Shown: positions 7,323-32,398 of the stretch, one piece after another
How positions within the stretch are numbered: position 1 is the first letter of the stretch
Layout of the letters: each line of letters begins with the position of its first letter
Assembly: GCF_000014005.1 (NCBI RefSeq)
Contig: NC_008009.1
Span: 3,658,001-3,722,000, forward strand
DNA from: Candidatus Koribacter versatilis Ellin345
Lineage (GTDB): Bacteria > Acidobacteriota > Terriglobia > Terriglobales > Acidobacteriaceae
Length of the DNA: 64,000 nucleotides
Direction of reading: 5' to 3'
Translations under genes and position numbers: made by a program
Notes under the pieces: generated by a model
What the model was told of the DNA's origin: nothing
Databases searched by the model: none
What the model saw: only the letters and a program-made list of their open reading frames with translations

Positions 7323-8219
7323 ATGTCGACGTCCGCCCTGGAAAAACCGACTTTACCTGATCCTGAGGTTCCCCCAGCAGATTCGGGCTACCGCCTGACG
7401 ATGCTGGACGCGGAAAACAGCTACGCCGTCGATCGCAAGTCCTTCTACTATTCGTACGCGATCAATATGTTCACGGTCCTCCTCGTCATCTGGGCGAGCC
7501 ACTGGACCTTCACCCACAAAGAAGTCCTTCAGAAGCAGGTTTCGACCCTGGCTACCGACATCGGCGAGTATCTCCCGATGCCCGTCGGCAACAAGGCCAT
7601 GGGCGGCGGTGGCGGCGGCGGCGATCGCGACAAACTCGCGGCCCCCAAGGGCGCAGTACCCAAGATCAAGACCGACATTCAAATCACGCCTCCTGCGGTC
7701 GTCGTCCGCAATGAAAACCCAAAGCTCGCCGTGGAACCATCCGTCGTGGCGCCGCCGAATATTCCGGTGCTGAAGACCGGTGATCTCGGCGATCCGCTCG
7801 CGAAAATCATGGGTGCCCCATCCAACGGAACCGGCGCTGGTGGCGGCATTGGCAGCGGTTCGGGTGGTGGCGTCGGATCGGGACGCGGACCGGGTGTGGG
7901 ACCGGGGTGGGGTGGTGGCTACGGCGGCGGAGTTTATCGCGTGGGAAATGGCGTGAGCGCACCGGTCGCGGTTTATGACCCGGAGCCGGACTACTCCGAA
8001 GAAGCGCGCAAGGCGAAATATCAAGGCGTGGTGGTTCTCGCGGTTGTGGTTGGACCGGACGGAAGAGCGCATGACCCGCGGGTGCAACGCTCGCTGGGCA
8101 TGGGTCTTGACGAGAAAGCCATTGAGAAAATCAAAGAGTGGAAGTTCGAACCGGCGAAGAAAGACGGCGTGCCGGTGGCGGTGATGGTCAGCATCGAAGT
8201 CAGTTTCCACCTCTACTAA
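7323..8219 (+). CDS. TonB-like energy transducer
   Basis: 298-residue inner-membrane protein. A single TM segment lies at about residues 42-62, followed by a periplasmic region with a polyglycine run (near 92-100) and a long Gly/Ser/Pro-rich stretch (about 170-210). The C-terminal TonB domain (about 216-298) contains YDPEPDYSEEARKAKYQGVV and the WKFEPAKKDG(V)PV signature. Such proteins couple the proton motive force, through ExbB/ExbD, to outer-membrane receptors; no exbBD or TonB-dependent receptor is in the window. The cytoplasmic N-terminus of about 40 residues is longer than in classical TonB, as is common in Acidobacteriota. Monocistronic, closed by a strong terminator. Confidence 0.88.
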   Translation: MSTSALEKPTLPDPEVPPADSGYRLTMLDAENSYAVDRKSFYYSYAINMFTVLLVIWASHWTFTHKEVLQKQVSTLATDIGEYLPMPVGNKAMGGGGGGGDRDKLAAPKGAVPKIKTDIQITPPAVVVRNENPKLAVEPSVVAPPNIPVLKTGDLGDPLAKIMGAPSNGTGAGGGIGSGSGGGVGSGRGPGVGPGWGGGYGGGVYRVGNGVSAPVAVYDPEPDYSEEARKAKYQGVVVLAVVVGPDGRAHDPRVQRSLGMGLDEKAIEKIKEWKFEPAKKDGVPVAVMVSIEVSFHLY

Positions 8220-25367: not shown

Positions 25368-25427
25368 TCCATCCGCCTGCAGTGAACGCTTCGAGGAGTG
25401 CAATCGCGCGGAACGAAGAGGTTCGGA

Positions 25428-26105
25428 GTGCGTCTGCTGGTCGTTGAAGACGATTTAGCCATCCAGGAGTTTCTCAAGCGTGCTTTGGTGGAAGCCGGTT
25501 ACCAGGTGGACGTGGCGGCCGACGGCCGCACCGCCGAGAAGCTTGCTACGGAAGGCATTCACGATGGGCTCATCATTGATCTGGGTTTGCCCGACATTGA
25601 CGGTCTCGACTTGATCGCGCGCACCCGGGCGCAAGGAAATTCCGCGCCGGTGCTGATCCTCTCCGCTCGCCGATCGGTGGATGAACGCGTGCGCGGCCTG
25701 GAACAAGGCGGCGACGACTACCTCACCAAGCCATTCGCTCTCTCGGAGTTGCTGGCGCGCTTGCGTAACCTATTGCGCCGCGCGAGCCCCGGGCAGCATG
25801 AATCGACGCGGCTGCGGATTGCGGACCTGGAACTCGATTTAGTGCGGAGAGAGGCGAAGCGCGGTGCAAATGTGCTGCAACTTACGCCCCAGGAGTTCGC
25901 GTTGCTGGAATACTTGTGCCGCAACACCGGCCGGGTGGTAACACGCACAATGATCCTGGATCACGTTTGGAAGATGCGGATTGATCCGGCAACCAACGTA
26001 GTGGACGTGCACATCTACAGGCTGCGAAGCAAGGTGGACCGCGACGCACCGAAGGCCCTGATCCACACCATTCGCGGAGTCGGGTATGTTCTCAAAGATT
26101 CTTAG
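25428..26105 (+). CDS. OmpR/PhoB family response regulator
   Basis: 225 residues. Receiver domain 1-115 with acidic pair VVEDD near residue 6, phospho-acceptor Asp in LIIDLGLPDIDG (about 50) and the KP pair in YLTKPFAL. The winged-helix effector domain (about 125-222) includes LTPQEFALLEYLCRNTGRVVTRTMI and VVDVHIYRLRSKV. The start is the GTG at 25428 with AAGAGG six bases upstream; the upstream GTG at 25398 directly abuts its Shine-Dalgarno and is rejected. The gene overlaps the sensor kinase gene by 20 bp. Confidence 0.92.
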   Translation: MRLLVVEDDLAIQEFLKRALVEAGYQVDVAADGRTAEKLATEGIHDGLIIDLGLPDIDGLDLIARTRAQGNSAPVLILSARRSVDERVRGLEQGGDDYLTKPFALSELLARLRNLLRRASPGQHESTRLRIADLELDLVRREAKRGANVLQLTPQEFALLEYLCRNTGRVVTRTMILDHVWKMRIDPATNVVDVHIYRLRSKVDRDAPKALIHTIRGVGYVLKDS

Positions 26106-27516
26106 CCGTCCGAAGGACACCGCGGCGTGGCGGCTTTCGATCTGGACGACGATTGCCTTCGCAGCGGGCAGCGCGATCGCGTTTGGGATCGTGTATTACA
26201 TGGTGTCGCTGGGCATTCGCGAACGCAGCGACCAGTGGCTGGTTGGCGAATCGGAGACACTGAAGGAAGTTTCAGATGCGACGCCGCGAGACAATCTTTA
26301 CCAGCGCGTAATTGAAGAAACCGCGCAAAACGCAGCCCACGAGATTCCGGGTGAGCACGAAACCGAGGACGAGAACCGGAACTCGGTGTTCTTTTTGCAA
26401 ATCGACAACCTTGGGGAGCCGCTGTGGTATGGCCCGGAGAACAGCCGCGACCGATTCGTTGAAGCGGTCCGAGGTCTTCAACCGGGTTCGCCGCAGACAC
26501 TGAAAATTCCTGAAAATGTGGTTCCCTATCGCGTGGTGGTACAAGACCTCAAATCCGGCGGCACAATCTACCTGGGACTTTCCGATATTGGCGCCGTAGA
26601 ACTGCTGCACCGGCTGATGCGCGGATTCTTCATTGTGTGGATCGGCATGGTGCTGCTGGGATTGATGATCTCGTATCTCAGCGCCCGCCGAACGCTTTTA
26701 CGCGTGGAGACGATCACGCAGACGGTGTCGCGCATTGGCAGCGAGGACCTGAGCGCCCGGCTGGCGGAGGCGCACAATGCCGATGAAATCGCGCGGCTGG
26801 CGCAGACTTTTAACCGCATGCTCGATCGCATCCAGGCATCTGTGAACCAACTGCGAACGGTCACCGGTGCGGTCGCGCACGACATGAAGAGTCCGGTAAC
26901 GTCCATCCGCGGCAAATTGGAAGTTGCCTTGCTCGAAGGCAGCGCGGCGGATTGGCGTGAGCCAGTGGCGGAAGCGGTAGAGGGCCTTGACCGGCTGTCG
27001 CAGTTCATCAATACAACGCTCGATCTTGCCGAGGCGGAAGCGGGAGCCTTGCCGCTGCGAAAAGAGCCGGTGGACTTCGGCGCGCTAGTGGAACAATTCG
27101 TTGACATCTACACGCCAGCGTTCCACGAAAATCATCACCAGGTTCACGTGCAGATACACGAGCCGGTAACGGTGGACGTGGACGTGAGTCTAACCAACCG
27201 CATGCTTTCGAACCTGCTCGACAACGAGATGGCACACCTGCCGCCGGGCTGCAAGATTGACATTGAAGTGATGGCGCGCGAGCAGCAGGCAGAGCTCGTG
27301 ATTCGCGATGACGGTCCGGGCTTCCCTGCTGAGTTGAAGGCGCACGCGTTCGAACGGTTCGTGAAGGGCAAAGAGTCCAAGGGACACGGACTGGGCCTGG
27401 CGTTCGTAGATGCCGTGGTGCAGGCACATGGCGGAAATGTTGAGATTGAAGACACCCCGGGTGGGGGTGCAACGATTCGAATCTTAATGCCGCTGGTGGC
27501 CGTGAGCGTGGGATGA
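26086..27516 (+). CDS. membrane sensor histidine kinase
   Basis: 476 residues: TM1 about 17-38, an extracytoplasmic sensing domain of about 140 residues rich in acidic residues (EIPGEHETEDENRN), TM2 about 180-203, HAMP (about 203-255), HisKA with phospho-acceptor His265 (TGAVAHDMKSPVTSIRGK), and HATPase_c with NLLDNEMAHLPPG, RDDGPGFP and GHGLGLAFVDAVV. The N box reads DNEMAH where DNAxxH or DNAxKY is usual. Partner of the overlapping response regulator; the following 27513 gene overlaps its stop by 4 bp and belongs to the same operon. Confidence 0.92.
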   Translation: MFSKILSRPKDTAAWRLSIWTTIAFAAGSAIAFGIVYYMVSLGIRERSDQWLVGESETLKEVSDATPRDNLYQRVIEETAQNAAHEIPGEHETEDENRNSVFFLQIDNLGEPLWYGPENSRDRFVEAVRGLQPGSPQTLKIPENVVPYRVVVQDLKSGGTIYLGLSDIGAVELLHRLMRGFFIVWIGMVLLGLMISYLSARRTLLRVETITQTVSRIGSEDLSARLAEAHNADEIARLAQTFNRMLDRIQASVNQLRTVTGAVAHDMKSPVTSIRGKLEVALLEGSAADWREPVAEAVEGLDRLSQFINTTLDLAEAEAGALPLRKEPVDFGALVEQFVDIYTPAFHENHHQVHVQIHEPVTVDVDVSLTNRMLSNLLDNEMAHLPPGCKIDIEVMAREQQAELVIRDDGPGFPAELKAHAFERFVKGKESKGHGLGLAFVDAVVQAHGGNVEIEDTPGGGATIRILMPLVAVSVG

Positions 27517-28343
27517 AGCTTGGCGCGATCTTATTAACGATGGCAGTAGTCGGCGCGACCGCAGCGCCTGCAGTTGCGATTTGCGGAGCTTCGTCGCAGG
27601 ACATCGAGATCGGGTATCGCCAGATGTACAACCTCGATTTCGCCACCGCCCACAAGACCTTTGCGACCTACGAGAATGCGCATCCCGACGATCCGCTGGC
27701 ACATGTATCGAATGCCGCGGCCTACTTGTTCGGAGAGTTCGATCGCATGCACGTGTTGGAAATCGAACTTTTCGCCGACAATTCGCACTTCGAGAAACGA
27801 GAGAAGGTCGCACCCGATCCGGCAACGCGCGATGCCTTCGAGCATGAACTGGCCGTGGCAGACGGGATCTCGATGCGTCGCCTGGCGAAGTCGGCAAACG
27901 ATGCTGAGGCGCTGTTTGCGCAGATCCTTGCGAACGGCCTGCGCGGCGATTACGAAGCGCTCATCGAAAAGAAGAACCTGGCGAGCTTGACCTACATGAA
28001 GGCCTCGCGCGGGAAGGCGGAGCAGTTGCTGTCGCTCGATCCGCATTGCTATGACGCGTATCTTGCGGTGGGCGTGGAGAACTATCTGCTGGGCATTAAT
28101 CCGGCACCGGTGCGCTGGGTGCTGCGCATGACCGGCGCGCAAACCGACAAAGCTGACGGTATCCAAAAGCTGCAACTGACGGCTGAGAAGGGTGACTACC
28201 TTGCGCCTTTCGCCCGCTTGCTGCTGGCTGTGGCCGCGGTGCGAGAGAAAGATCCGGTGCGCGCGAAAGAGTTGCTATCTGGACTCGCGCAGGAGTTTCC
28301 GCAGAACCATTTGTATGCGGCACAGTTGGCGAGGATTCATTAG
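27513..28343 (+). CDS. secreted TPR-like protein of a two-component operon
   Basis: 276 residues with signal peptide (cleavage near AVA-IC, residue 22, so a Cys-proximal mature N-terminus but not a standard lipobox). The mature part has helical hairpins of TPR type: QMYNLDFATAHKTFATYENAHPDDPLAHVSNAAAYLF, KASRGKAEQLLSLDPHCYDAYLAVGVENYLLG, DYLAPFARLLLAVAAVREKDPVRAKELLSGLAQEFPQNHLY. Its ATG overlaps the kinase stop (ATGA), so it is translationally coupled to the sensor. It may be a periplasmic ligand-binding or output protein of this system. No named family recognised. Confidence 0.7.
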   Translation: MKLGAILLTMAVVGATAAPAVAICGASSQDIEIGYRQMYNLDFATAHKTFATYENAHPDDPLAHVSNAAAYLFGEFDRMHVLEIELFADNSHFEKREKVAPDPATRDAFEHELAVADGISMRRLAKSANDAEALFAQILANGLRGDYEALIEKKNLASLTYMKASRGKAEQLLSLDPHCYDAYLAVGVENYLLGINPAPVRWVLRMTGAQTDKADGIQKLQLTAEKGDYLAPFARLLLAVAAVREKDPVRAKELLSGLAQEFPQNHLYAAQLARIH

Positions 28344-29407: not shown

Positions 29408-29986
29408 CTACTGCGAGATCTTCTCTGTCCCCGAGATCGACATCTGCACTTCTTTGTTTACGCGCAGAATGAACGTGCTGGGGTCTTTCATGCCCCATTT
29501 CACGAATGGGATTTCGAATTGGGTTTGCATCTGGAGTTGGGTGCCGTTGATCTGTGCGGGGACGGTGAGGGTGAGGTCGTGATCGGCGCCGTGGATGCGG
29601 AAGATGCCTTGCACCTGCACTTGCGACGCGCCTGACATGGCGAGGTGCCCGATGACTTTGCTCGGAGTGAAGGTCGCATCGGGAAAGCGGTCGCTTTGCA
29701 GGATTTCTTTGTGCATCTTGTGGTCGCGGGTGTCGTTGCCGCTCTGGCCGCTGGGGACGTCGACTACGAGTTGGCCGCCGGCTGCGCCGGTAGCGGGATC
29801 GAAGTGAATGCTGCCGCTCTTCAACTTGAACGTGCCGTGGACAGTGTGAAGGACGTCGGCGAGGGTGAAGTCGACTTTCGTAGTGGCGGGGTCGAAGTCG
29901 ATACGGACTTCGGCAGGCTTCTGCGCAACAGCCGCGGATGCCGCGAGGAGCAGGATGGGAAGCAGCAGCCGTCGTGCGTGGATCAT
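29408..29986 (-). CDS. YceI family periplasmic lipid-binding protein
   Basis: 192 residues: signal peptide (MIHARRLLLPILLLAASAAVAQ), then a YceI lipocalin-like barrel with FDPATTKVDFTLADVLHTVHGTFKLKSGSIHFDP, HKEILQSDRFPDATFTPSKV and VPFVKWGMKDPS-type C-terminal strands. YceI proteins bind long amphiphiles such as polyisoprenoid quinones. The ATG at 29986 overlaps the stop of the flavoprotein gene (ATGA) and has AAGGAG upstream. As third gene after a type III polyketide synthase and a flavoprotein, it may carry the hydrophobic product. The longer open frame to 30457 is an artefact. Confidence 0.9.
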   Translation of the reverse strand: MIHARRLLLPILLLAASAAVAQKPAEVRIDFDPATTKVDFTLADVLHTVHGTFKLKSGSIHFDPATGAAGGQLVVDVPSGQSGNDTRDHKMHKEILQSDRFPDATFTPSKVIGHLAMSGASQVQVQGIFRIHGADHDLTLTVPAQINGTQLQMQTQFEIPFVKWGMKDPSTFILRVNKEVQMSISGTEKISQ

Positions 29987-31104
29987 GCTTCTCCTTGCGT
30001 GTACAACATGCGCCAGCCGAGGGTGAGCGCGCGTTCGAGGCCGAAGTCGCGGAGCTTTGATTCGCCAACGTGGATGCTGAGCATTTGAGCGAAGAGTTCG
30101 GGGCGCGATGACAGAGCACGCAGCGTGCGATGGCGTAACCAGCGCCGGTTGCCCATCGATAGCATCAGCATCGACATACGGCGGGCCGGTTTGCCGATCT
30201 CGATATGCGCACGGGCATAGGATGCGAGCGAGCCGGATTGCATGGCCTCGACAACTGCGACTGCCTGGCGGAAGCCGAGCGACATGCCTTCGCCGGTGAT
30301 GGCATCTACCGAGCCAGAAGCTTCGCCGACGAGCGCGATGTTGCCGGCGCAGACCGTGTCGAGCTGGCGGGTGAGTGTGATGGCTCCCTGCTCGCGGCTG
30401 CTGGCGTTCGCGCCCGAGAGTTTTTCTGCGAGCTCTGGGAAGAACGTTGAAAGACAACTGAGCCGGAGGTGCGGATCGGCGGTGATGAGCGCTACGCAGA
30501 CTTGATCCTCAGCTACGGGCGTGACGTAGACCTGGCCGTGGTCACTCCAGTAGACCTCAACGTAGTCGGTCCACGGGGTGAGAGCGAAGTGCTGGCGGAA
30601 GCCGTAGCGGCGGAGTTCGGTTTGCGTGCGACCGATTTGCATGCGCTCGCGCACTTGCGATGCCTGGCCGTCGGCACCGATGATCCAGTCGCATCTGACT
30701 TCTTCGTCGTTCAGCGTGACACGACCGTCGGCGATCGCGGAGACGCGTGTGCCCCAGCGCAGATCGACACCGGCTTCTTCTGCGCGCTGGGTGAGCAGAT
30801 CGTGAAGGACGGTGCGGCGCACGCCGTAGCCGACGCCGCGCGGGAAGGTTGCGTCGACCGAGGTCTCGCCTTCACGGAAGCGGATACCGCGGAATTGAAA
30901 CGCGTTTTCCACGGGAATGGTGACGCCGACGGCGGCGAGTGACTCCAGACCGTCGGGCATGAGGCCTTCGCCACAGGCCTTGTCGATGGGCGGCACGGCG
31001 TGATCGGCGAGCATAACCTTCATGCCCGCATGGCGTGCGGCGATTGCGGTGGCCAGGCCAACTGGGCCGCCGCCGACGATGACGACATCGGTGCGCGTGC
31101 TCAT
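29983..31104 (-). CDS. FAD-dependent oxidoreductase of the type III PKS cluster
   Basis: 373-residue flavoprotein of the geranylgeranyl-reductase / aromatic hydroxylase group. GGGPVGLATAIAARHAG (about 11-27) binds FAD; the CGEGLMP motif (about 48-54) and DWIIGADGQASQVR and NIALVGEASGSVDAITGEGMSLGF complete the pattern. It starts 4 bp after the stop of the type III polyketide synthase gene and its own stop overlaps the YceI start, so the three are one operon. In phenolic-lipid clusters such as Streptomyces srs, a flavoprotein hydroxylates the resorcinol to a quinol; a similar tailoring role is plausible. The expected methyltransferase is absent here. Confidence 0.85.
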   Translation of the reverse strand: MSTRTDVVIVGGGPVGLATAIAARHAGMKVMLADHAVPPIDKACGEGLMPDGLESLAAVGVTIPVENAFQFRGIRFREGETSVDATFPRGVGYGVRRTVLHDLLTQRAEEAGVDLRWGTRVSAIADGRVTLNDEEVRCDWIIGADGQASQVRERMQIGRTQTELRRYGFRQHFALTPWTDYVEVYWSDHGQVYVTPVAEDQVCVALITADPHLRLSCLSTFFPELAEKLSGANASSREQGAITLTRQLDTVCAGNIALVGEASGSVDAITGEGMSLGFRQAVAVVEAMQSGSLASYARAHIEIGKPARRMSMLMLSMGNRRWLRHRTLRALSSRPELFAQMLSIHVGESKLRDFGLERALTLGWRMLYTQGEA

Positions 31105-31108
31105 CGGC

Positions 31109-32158
31109 TTACCACACGAGCAGCACGAGCTCGGCGCAGAAACCGGGGCCCATGGCTGCAAGGACACTGAGCGTCCCGGGAGCGGGACGCTGGTGGTGAT
31201 AAATGTTTTCGAGCACCACGAGCACCGAAGCCGACGAGAGATTGCCAACTTCGCTCAAGCATTTCCAGGACGGAGCGAGTGCGCCTTCGGGAAGTTCCAG
31301 CGATTGCTCCGTTGCCTCGAGGACCTTCGGGCCACCGGTGTGCATGATCCACGTGGCGATGTCGGAGCGCTTGAGATCGAACTCGGCGAGGAAGCTGTCG
31401 ACATCACCTCGCAGGTGATCGTGGACCATCGTCGGAACGTCTTGCGAGAGGACAATGCGGAAGCCCTTCTCGGAGATGTCCCAACCCATGACGTCTTGCG
31501 TGTCGGGATAAAAAACCGAGCGCGTCGCGACGACACGCGGGCCGTGCTGGGCTTTGTCTTTGCCGGAGATGATGACGGCGGCGGCGCCATCACCAAAGAG
31601 ACCGGACGAGATGAGGTTCGCGACGGAGAGGTCGTCGCGTTGCCAGGTGAGCGAGCACAACTCGACGGACAGCAGAGCAACGTGATGATCGGGATAGGCT
31701 TTGACGTAGTCAGCGGCGCGCGCGATGCCGGCGGCGCCAGCGACGCATCCGAGACCGAAGATGGGGATGCGCTTGATGTTCGGCGAGAGCTTCATCTTGT
31801 TGACGAGACGCGCATCGATGGAAGGCGAGCACATGCCGGTGACAGAAACGAAGAAGAGCGCGTCGAGTTCGGTGGCGGAAATTCCGGCGCGATGCAGCGC
31901 GCGGCAGAGAGCTTTCTCGCCGAGTTGTTCGGCAACGCGGATCCACGCATTGTTGGAGTCGCCGAAGGTCAGCATGTTGTCGTATTCGGGAATAGTGAGC
32001 GCGAGGTGGCGATGATCTACACCAACGCGCGAGTGCAACCGCTCCAACACCTGTGGCTTATCGAGCTTGTCCGCCCAATTTTTTCCCAGCGCTTGGAAGA
32101 TTTCCTGCTGGCTATACCGGTTCGGCGGAAAGGCCGTGGCCACTCCAGTGATTCGCAT
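31109..32158 (-). CDS. type III polyketide synthase
   Basis: 349-residue chalcone-synthase-superfamily enzyme. The Cys-His-Asn triad is intact: Cys138 (FGLGCVAGAAG), His273 (IMHTGGPKV) and Asn306 (GNLSSASV). Length and sequence style match bacterial alkylresorcinol/alkylpyrone synthases (BpsA, SrsA, ArsB/C type), which extend a long-chain fatty acyl starter with malonyl-CoA; the Ala/Gly residues after the Cys are compatible with a long acyl tunnel. It is the first gene of a PKS-flavoprotein-YceI operon, suggesting a membrane-associated phenolic lipid or quinone-like product. Starter preference cannot be read from sequence. Confidence 0.92.
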   Translation of the reverse strand: MRITGVATAFPPNRYSQQEIFQALGKNWADKLDKPQVLERLHSRVGVDHRHLALTIPEYDNMLTFGDSNNAWIRVAEQLGEKALCRALHRAGISATELDALFFVSVTGMCSPSIDARLVNKMKLSPNIKRIPIFGLGCVAGAAGIARAADYVKAYPDHHVALLSVELCSLTWQRDDLSVANLISSGLFGDGAAAVIISGKDKAQHGPRVVATRSVFYPDTQDVMGWDISEKGFRIVLSQDVPTMVHDHLRGDVDSFLAEFDLKRSDIATWIMHTGGPKVLEATEQSLELPEGALAPSWKCLSEVGNLSSASVLVVLENIYHHQRPAPGTLSVLAAMGPGFCAELVLLVW

Positions 32159-32330: not shown

Positions 32331-32364
32331 AACAAAATAAAAAAGGCGACACCTTGGTGTCGCC
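32331..32364 (-). terminator. intrinsic terminator of the ilv operon
   Basis: Perfect 9-bp inverted repeat GGCGACACC/GGTGTCGCC (32345-32353 and 32356-32364). Read on the minus strand it is followed by TTTTTTATTTT. It lies 34 bp past the ilvC stop. The rest of 32159-32398 should hold the promoter of the polyketide operon; no clear -35/-10 pair is proposed. Confidence 0.92.
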
Positions 32365-32398
32365 TTCCCAGTTCCGGAGTTGGAGCGTGAGCGGTTGG

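Follow-up and report, generated by a model that had tools for sequence, protein, structure and literature searches.

In a 64,000-nucleotide stretch of the genome of Candidatus Koribacter versatilis Ellin345 (NC_008009.1, positions 3,658,001 to 3,722,000; hereafter, the window), a type III polyketide synthase (PKS), a flavoprotein, and a YceI-family protein are encoded by a compact minus-strand operon, the gene order of which recurs in other genomes. The operon is a variant of the known phenolic-lipid and polyketide-quinone operons, with a coupled YceI gene. We tentatively propose, with a confidence just short of even, that the operon makes a lipidic polyketide that would be ring-oxidized and would have a dedicated YceI lipocalin as its binding protein in the periplasm. 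Reading of the open reading frames (ORFs) yielded three complete genes in the order PKS, flavoprotein, YceI, reproducing exactly the coordinates given in an earlier, sequence-only reading of the locus: 4 bp (31105–31108) separate the end of the PKS gene at 31109 from the flavoprotein ATG at 31104, and the flavoprotein stop codon and the YceI ATG overlap by 4 bp (29983–29986).

31109–32158, minus strand: type III PKS gene; 349 aa, triad C138/H273/N306; by its sequence, a probable long-chain alkyl-resorcinol/alkylpyrone synthase
29983–31104, minus strand: gene for a flavin adenine dinucleotide (FAD)-dependent oxidoreductase of the aromatic hydroxylase/geranylgeranyl-reductase fold; 373 aa; probable ring hydroxylase
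29408–29986, minus strand: gene for a YceI lipocalin-like lipid-binding protein; 192 aa, signal-like N terminus

The PKS matches Pfam Chal_sti_synt_C (73.5 bits) and Chal_sti_synt_N (60 bits; cut-off 27), and the window genome contains one match to the N-terminal family. The Cys138/His273/Asn306 triad, previously described as intact, is invariant across 20 aligned PKS sequences, the window's among them. The closest solved structure is Mycobacterium tuberculosis PKS11 (314.9 bits), followed by CylI (199 bits). The top NCBIfam model is DpgA, which we rejected as the identity of the enzyme because its 192.5 bits fall far short of the equivalog cut-off of 425. To place the enzyme, we compared 150 loci: the window, the best 80 among the matches listed in a second search, and 69 loci taken from 102 further PKS matches, namely the 56 closest and 13 selected out of the remaining 46. 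Removal of three identical pairs left 147 distinct loci, which together with six references formed a tree of 153 rows. In this tree (like all trees here, a quick LG+G4 reconstruction without bootstrap, and one that carried a long-branch warning), the window PKS belongs to a 67-row clade (clade A; support 99), mostly of Acidobacteriota as judged by record title or handle. Clade A falls within a 116-row clade (support 100), the remainder of which (clade B) consists of PKS11, Streptomyces, Myxococcota, and other loci. A long branch places the reference CylI in clade A, probably falsely, and several clade-A records carry Proteobacteria titles, which may reflect misassigned bins or transfers. One genome (G217) has three clade-A PKS copies (L035, L037, L087), none of which is adjoined by a flavoprotein. 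Affiliation with short-starter enzymes, which the sequence-only reading had named as the outcome that would speak against it, was not found as far as the six references allow, since the PKS groups with PKS11 and scores far under the DpgA cut-off. The enzyme is thus a likely long-chain alkyl-resorcinol/pyrone synthase.

The flavoprotein matches Pfam FAD_binding_3 (66 bits; cut-off 22), and its structure model (predicted local distance difference test score, pLDDT, 93.3) resembles FAD halogenases (Z 39), squalene epoxidase and p-hydroxybenzoate hydroxylase (Z of about 36), and geranylgeranyl reductases (Z 33–35). FAD group A aromatic hydroxylases are marked by GxGxxG, DG (DGxxSxxR), and GD (GDA...) motifs, and flavin-dependent halogenases by the signature WxWxIP. 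Among 36 aligned flavoprotein rows, GxGxxG is present in all and the DG motif in 34, the window protein having both, and neither WxWxIP nor the geranylgeranyl-reductase motif was found in any. Halogenase and canonical geranylgeranyl reductase were accordingly both discarded as identities, the fold being shared and the signature absent from all 36 rows. Taken together, sequence and model point to a probable ring hydroxylase.

The third protein matches Pfam YceI (74.6 bits; cut-off 23.7), and its model (pLDDT 87.1) matches BcnA, TT1927b, and Escherichia coli YceI at Z 18.8–19.6, the best match being BcnA (Z 19.6 over 157 residues, root-mean-square deviation 2.5; TT1927b, Z 18.9). Its N terminus is signal-like by eye, with an Arg-rich start, a hydrophobic core, and AVA-Q, from which a periplasmic location is predicted. 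Of the three YceI proteins in the window genome, that of the operon has the lowest Pfam profile score.

Recurrence of the three-gene order and of the flavoprotein–YceI pair

The compared loci were annotated with profiles built here and were counted if at least 2.7 kb followed the PKS, with genes scored on the same strand and within 4.5 kb; methyltransferase counts cover two families, ICMT and one class I family, both with profiles derived from these loci. The same three-gene order, which the sequence-only reading had proposed to look for elsewhere, recurs: among 61 clade-A loci, including the window, 33 have the flavoprotein, 14 have YceI, and 13 have both. Spacing is tight in the 14 three-gene clade-A loci (a set that includes L112, with its short flank; gaps were taken from the nearest in-frame start and lean small), ranging from −4 to 13 bp between PKS and flavoprotein in 13 of them (54 in L137) and from −26 to 22 bp between flavoprotein and YceI. 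Linkage of YceI to the PKS, the absence of which elsewhere had been set as a ground for abandoning the idea, also holds in other genomes: a search of 297 acidobacterial genomes gave 62 YceI matches, 13 of which have a type III PKS match within 10 kb, versus about 0.2 expected at random (assuming a 4.5-Mb genome; the rows are not independent). Outside clades A and B, YceI was found in 4 of 29 loci.

Neither methyltransferase family was found in any of the 61 clade-A loci. Among the 40 clade-B loci, a methyltransferase is present in 35, the flavoprotein in 29, a downstream ligase in 22, and YceI in 6. The earlier interpretation of the locus holds in part, but its suggestion that YceI replaces the methyltransferase of known clusters is not borne out in that form. 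There is no methyltransferase among the window operon's genes and scanned neighbors. As a general statement, however, replacement was rejected: YceI and a methyltransferase match coexist in eight loci (L085, L096, L102, L160, L183, L065, L067, and L069; the methyltransferase signal is weak in L102, L160, and L183, with E values of 2e-11 to 3e-15), and the methyltransferases are missing from clade A regardless of YceI, 47 of the 61 loci having neither. Methyltransferase loss and YceI recruitment look like separate events. A methyltransferase relocated within the window genome is a weak possibility: the best ICMT match elsewhere (L204; 52.7 bits with the operon-type profile, E 2.7e-15) is not clearly the lost gene.

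On single representative loci, Pfam identified ICMT in L085 (91.1 bits) and, in L088, an AMP-binding enzyme (190.6 bits) that we read as a probable fatty-acyl-AMP ligase. In L088, L149, and L174, the three loci inspected, an acyl carrier protein (ACP)-like ORF with an LDSL motif lies between the ICMT and ligase genes. Given the AMP-binding enzyme in 22 of the 40 clade-B loci, accompanied by the ACP-like ORF in these three, the sister PKSs probably receive fatty acyl starters. Two further genes were noted near the PKS: an ORF resembling a PlsC-type acyltransferase, by eye, stands between flavoprotein and YceI in L096 (7780–8658, plus strand), and Acidobacteriaceae loci (many of L079–L094, L128, L143–L145) repeatedly have a gene for a FabF-like ketosynthase downstream of the PKS, at distances from a few hundred to several thousand bases.

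The flavoprotein and YceI also occur as a pair without an adjacent PKS. A survey of the 297 genomes at E ≤ 1e-30, in which at most six first-look candidates were scored per genome (so that some may be missed) and the YceI subset was compiled by hand, recovered the flavoprotein in 33 genomes, 32 of which also have a PKS match, one merely a remnant. The flavoprotein lies within 5 kb of the PKS match in 27 genomes (the remnant, in G023, being one of these); in four it stands beside YceI with the PKS elsewhere, in one the PKS is on a different contig and no YceI adjoins, and in one no PKS match was found. Overall, YceI is within 1.5 kb of the flavoprotein in 9 of the 33 genomes. For the separated pair of G217, the PKS is 376 kb distant; for those of G112, G147, and G061, it is on a different contig. 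The four represent three genomic contexts, G112 and G147 being syntenic, and occupy two or three places in the flavoprotein tree. Flavoprotein and YceI are the sole ORFs of at least 100 aa common to these four genomes and G023 (E ≤ 1e-15), with order and strand identical in all five and with the window's 4-bp overlap in G217. In L098 (5447–7288, minus strand), the two proteins form one uninterrupted frame of 613 aa, for which a sequencing error is possible. At the G023 locus (L219), all that is left of the PKS beside an open flavoprotein–YceI pair is a remnant containing a stop codon (7754–7918). The pairs away from the PKS and the fused frame indicate that YceI tracks the flavoprotein step, not the PKS itself, and it follows the flavoprotein rather than taking the place of the methyltransferase.

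Proposed pathway and competing explanations

In the pathway that we propose, the PKS, the class of which is established by sequence, would load a long fatty-acyl starter and extend it with malonyl-, possibly methylmalonyl-CoA to an alkylresorcinol or alkylpyrone. The flavoprotein would then oxidize the ring to a hydroquinone- or quinone-type head group without methylation, a step suggested by its fold and motifs and by its relation to the PKS–methyltransferase–flavoprotein operons; in the sister operons of clade B, methylation is probably added. Finally, the coupled YceI protein would be exported, bind the amphipathic lipid in its barrel in the periplasm, and carry or shield it between the membranes; the linkage is observed, and the ligand is proposed by analogy with YceI proteins known to bind ubiquinone-8 and polyprenyl lipids. 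In line with the earlier suggestion, the product would be exported and would be of the resorcinol, pyrone, or quinone type.

Several observations weigh against this proposal. YceI proteins of the same subfamily occur in genomes without a PKS match at E ≤ 1e-10 (G265, G185, G230, G145, G171), and linked and unlinked YceI proteins mix in the YceI tree. Among genomes of the window's family, this YceI is as common in those that lack the clade PKS (7 of 13) as in those that have it (10 of 18; counts made by hand at E ≤ 1e-25). Most clade-A loci with sufficient flank (47 of 61) have no YceI within 4.5 kb of the PKS. The GD motif, GDA[SA]G in 31 of the 36 flavoprotein rows, reads GEASG in the window protein, and the sequences are compatible with either a resorcinol or a pyrone synthase and with either a hydroxylase or a reductase. 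In four of the seven YceI-bearing genomes without the clade PKS, YceI adjoins a different PKS type or a PKS remnant, and same-subfamily YceI is also found beside a second, distant PKS type (L067, L069). The coupling is thus frequent but not obligatory.

The most serious competing explanation, though one we consider unlikely, is that YceI is a general quinone or isoprenoid lipocalin co-expressed with the polyketide genes, for instance in response to redox or envelope stress, and that its ligands are menaquinone or polyprenyl lipids, not the polyketide. It draws on the known YceI structures, which hold ubiquinone-8 or octaprenyl, on the tie of BcnA to lipid-peroxide detoxification (PMC9113575, in part), and on the PKS-free and unlinked occurrences listed above. 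However, the repeated coupling to the flavoprotein, in three contexts off the PKS and one fusion, is hard to square with a stress role, and the other two YceI proteins of the window genome (L032, L033) are distant from that of the operon in the YceI tree.

It is distinctly improbable, in our assessment, that the flavoprotein is a geranylgeranyl-reductase-type enzyme that saturates the acyl or prenyl chain, in which case the product would be an alkylpyrone or alkylresorcinol altered in its side chain. The best NCBIfam match is indeed the geranylgeranyl reductase family TIGR02032, and a geranylgeranyl-reductase-like fold is matched at Z 34.6; yet the 122.1 bits are short of the 158.8 cut-off, the family motif is missing from all 36 rows, and hydroxylases score structurally at least as high. 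Furthermore, the third gene of pkq-type operons, a putative counterpart, is described as encoding an oxidoreductase that acts on the resorcinol (PMC9927152, in part).

Very little probability attaches to the view that the three genes became neighbors by operon drift and share no pathway: the many clade-A PKS genes without YceI fit it, whereas the excess of YceI matches near PKS genes over the random expectation, the identical gene order in distant loci, and the persistence of flavoprotein and YceI as the only genes common to G217, G112, G147, G061, and G023 do not. Least probable of all is a DpgA-like, malonyl-CoA-only PKS that makes a small aromatic product with YceI incidental, because the enzyme, despite having DpgA as its top NCBIfam model, is far under that model's cut-off and much closer to PKS11, and the sister loci carry a probable fatty-acyl-AMP ligase.

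If the proposed ring-oxidized lipid and its YceI carrier are real, a type III polyketide lipid would be carried through the periplasm by a protein of its own, and a product class could be assigned to many type III PKS genes of Acidobacteriota; the genome context also names a specific, directly testable candidate cargo for a YceI protein. A bolder extension, to which we give little credence, is that acidobacteria load an unmethylated alkyl(hydro)quinone, the product of PKS and flavoprotein, onto its own YceI protein, where it would act between inner and outer membrane, parallel to menaquinone, as a soluble carrier for electrons or as an antioxidant carrier, with flavoprotein and YceI as a portable two-gene finishing-and-delivery cassette.

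Surroundings of the operon

The operon is flanked in the window by the following features:

32340–32369, minus strand: terminator-like hairpin downstream of ilvC, between ilvC and the PKS operon
27513–28343, plus strand: gene for a tetratricopeptide repeat (TPR)-like protein with a signal-like N terminus, 1.1 kb past the YceI-side end of the operon
25398–27516, plus strand: genes for an OmpR-type response regulator and a histidine kinase, overlapping the TPR gene

Given the hairpin between ilvC and the PKS gene, the operon is probably a separate transcription unit, although terminator-like sites in the region are not enriched (5 observed versus 5.0 in shuffles); no promoter beyond chance was found in the region (1 observed versus 1.4 by chance). 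The TPR matches of the TPR-like protein fall under the Pfam cut-offs. Of 64 clade-A loci with an upstream flank, 27 have a homolog of its gene 5′ of the PKS, as do two loci outside the clades (L047, L056) and none of 42 clade-B loci. The two-component genes are a possible regulator of the operon; homologs are found near the PKS in L067, L069, and L132 (response regulator, 58%–66% identity).

Relation to known systems

Polyketide quinones are described from Streptomyces and mycobacteria (PMC9927152, PMC5916927), and alkylpyrones from Myxococcota (PMC12766979); a review (PMC4885859) reports that an acidobacterial type III PKS fragment gave metabolites in Ralstonia metallidurans. YceI proteins have repeatedly been crystallized with quinone or prenyl lipids, their physiological cargo being unsettled (PMC9113575, in part). 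Among the open-licence papers searched, we found none that pairs YceI with a type III polyketide synthase or alkylresorcinol, and none that brings together three of the four subjects lipocalin, periplasm, alkylpyrone, and PKS.

The window YceI protein shares its Pfam family and fold with the YceI/BcnA lipocalins (solved YceI proteins, Z 13–20). The bcnA orthologs are generally linked to cytochrome b561 (PMC9113575), whereas the window gene is coupled to a polyketide flavoprotein. On the PKS side, the nearest solved relative, M. tuberculosis PKS11, is a member of the same 116-row clade. The Corallococcus loci L149, L151, and L157 encode PKSs 54%–55% identical to the window's, followed by ICMT, ligase, and flavoprotein; they differ from the window in having a methyltransferase and a ligase and in that no YceI was found, and they may correspond to the published alkylpyrone clusters (PMC12766979, in part).

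The operon of ‘Saltatorellus ferox’ offers a parallel by description: its PKS, which yields alkylresorcinols with C15–C17 chains, is linked to two methyltransferases, a lipoprotein, and a lipid/isoprenoid-binding protein (PMC10896814, in part). It differs in the two methyltransferases, in the upstream position of the binding protein, and in that its text mentions no flavoprotein, although one table row of the same source labels one of the methyltransferases an FAD-dependent oxidoreductase. The loci L160 and L183, titled Planctomycetota, have a layout similar to that of the ‘Saltatorellus ferox’ operon.

A close likeness is to the srsABC/pkqABC-type operons (Streptomyces phenolic lipids, mycobacterial polyketide quinones), in which a PKS of the same clade stands beside a homologous flavoprotein. 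In the related enzymes ArsB and ArsC, a Trp residue distinguishes one from the other (PMC9927152, in part). The Streptomyces and Actinacidiphila loci L173, L176, and L178, likened to the published srs/pkq operons by gene layout, have the order PKS–ICMT–flavoprotein, with PKSs 51%–53% identical to the window's. Defined as PKS plus methyltransferase plus flavoprotein, the srs/pkq type does not include the window operon, which has no methyltransferase of the two families. Compared with srs/pkq, the two methyltransferase families are absent at 61 of 61 clade-A loci, and YceI is coupled in part of them.

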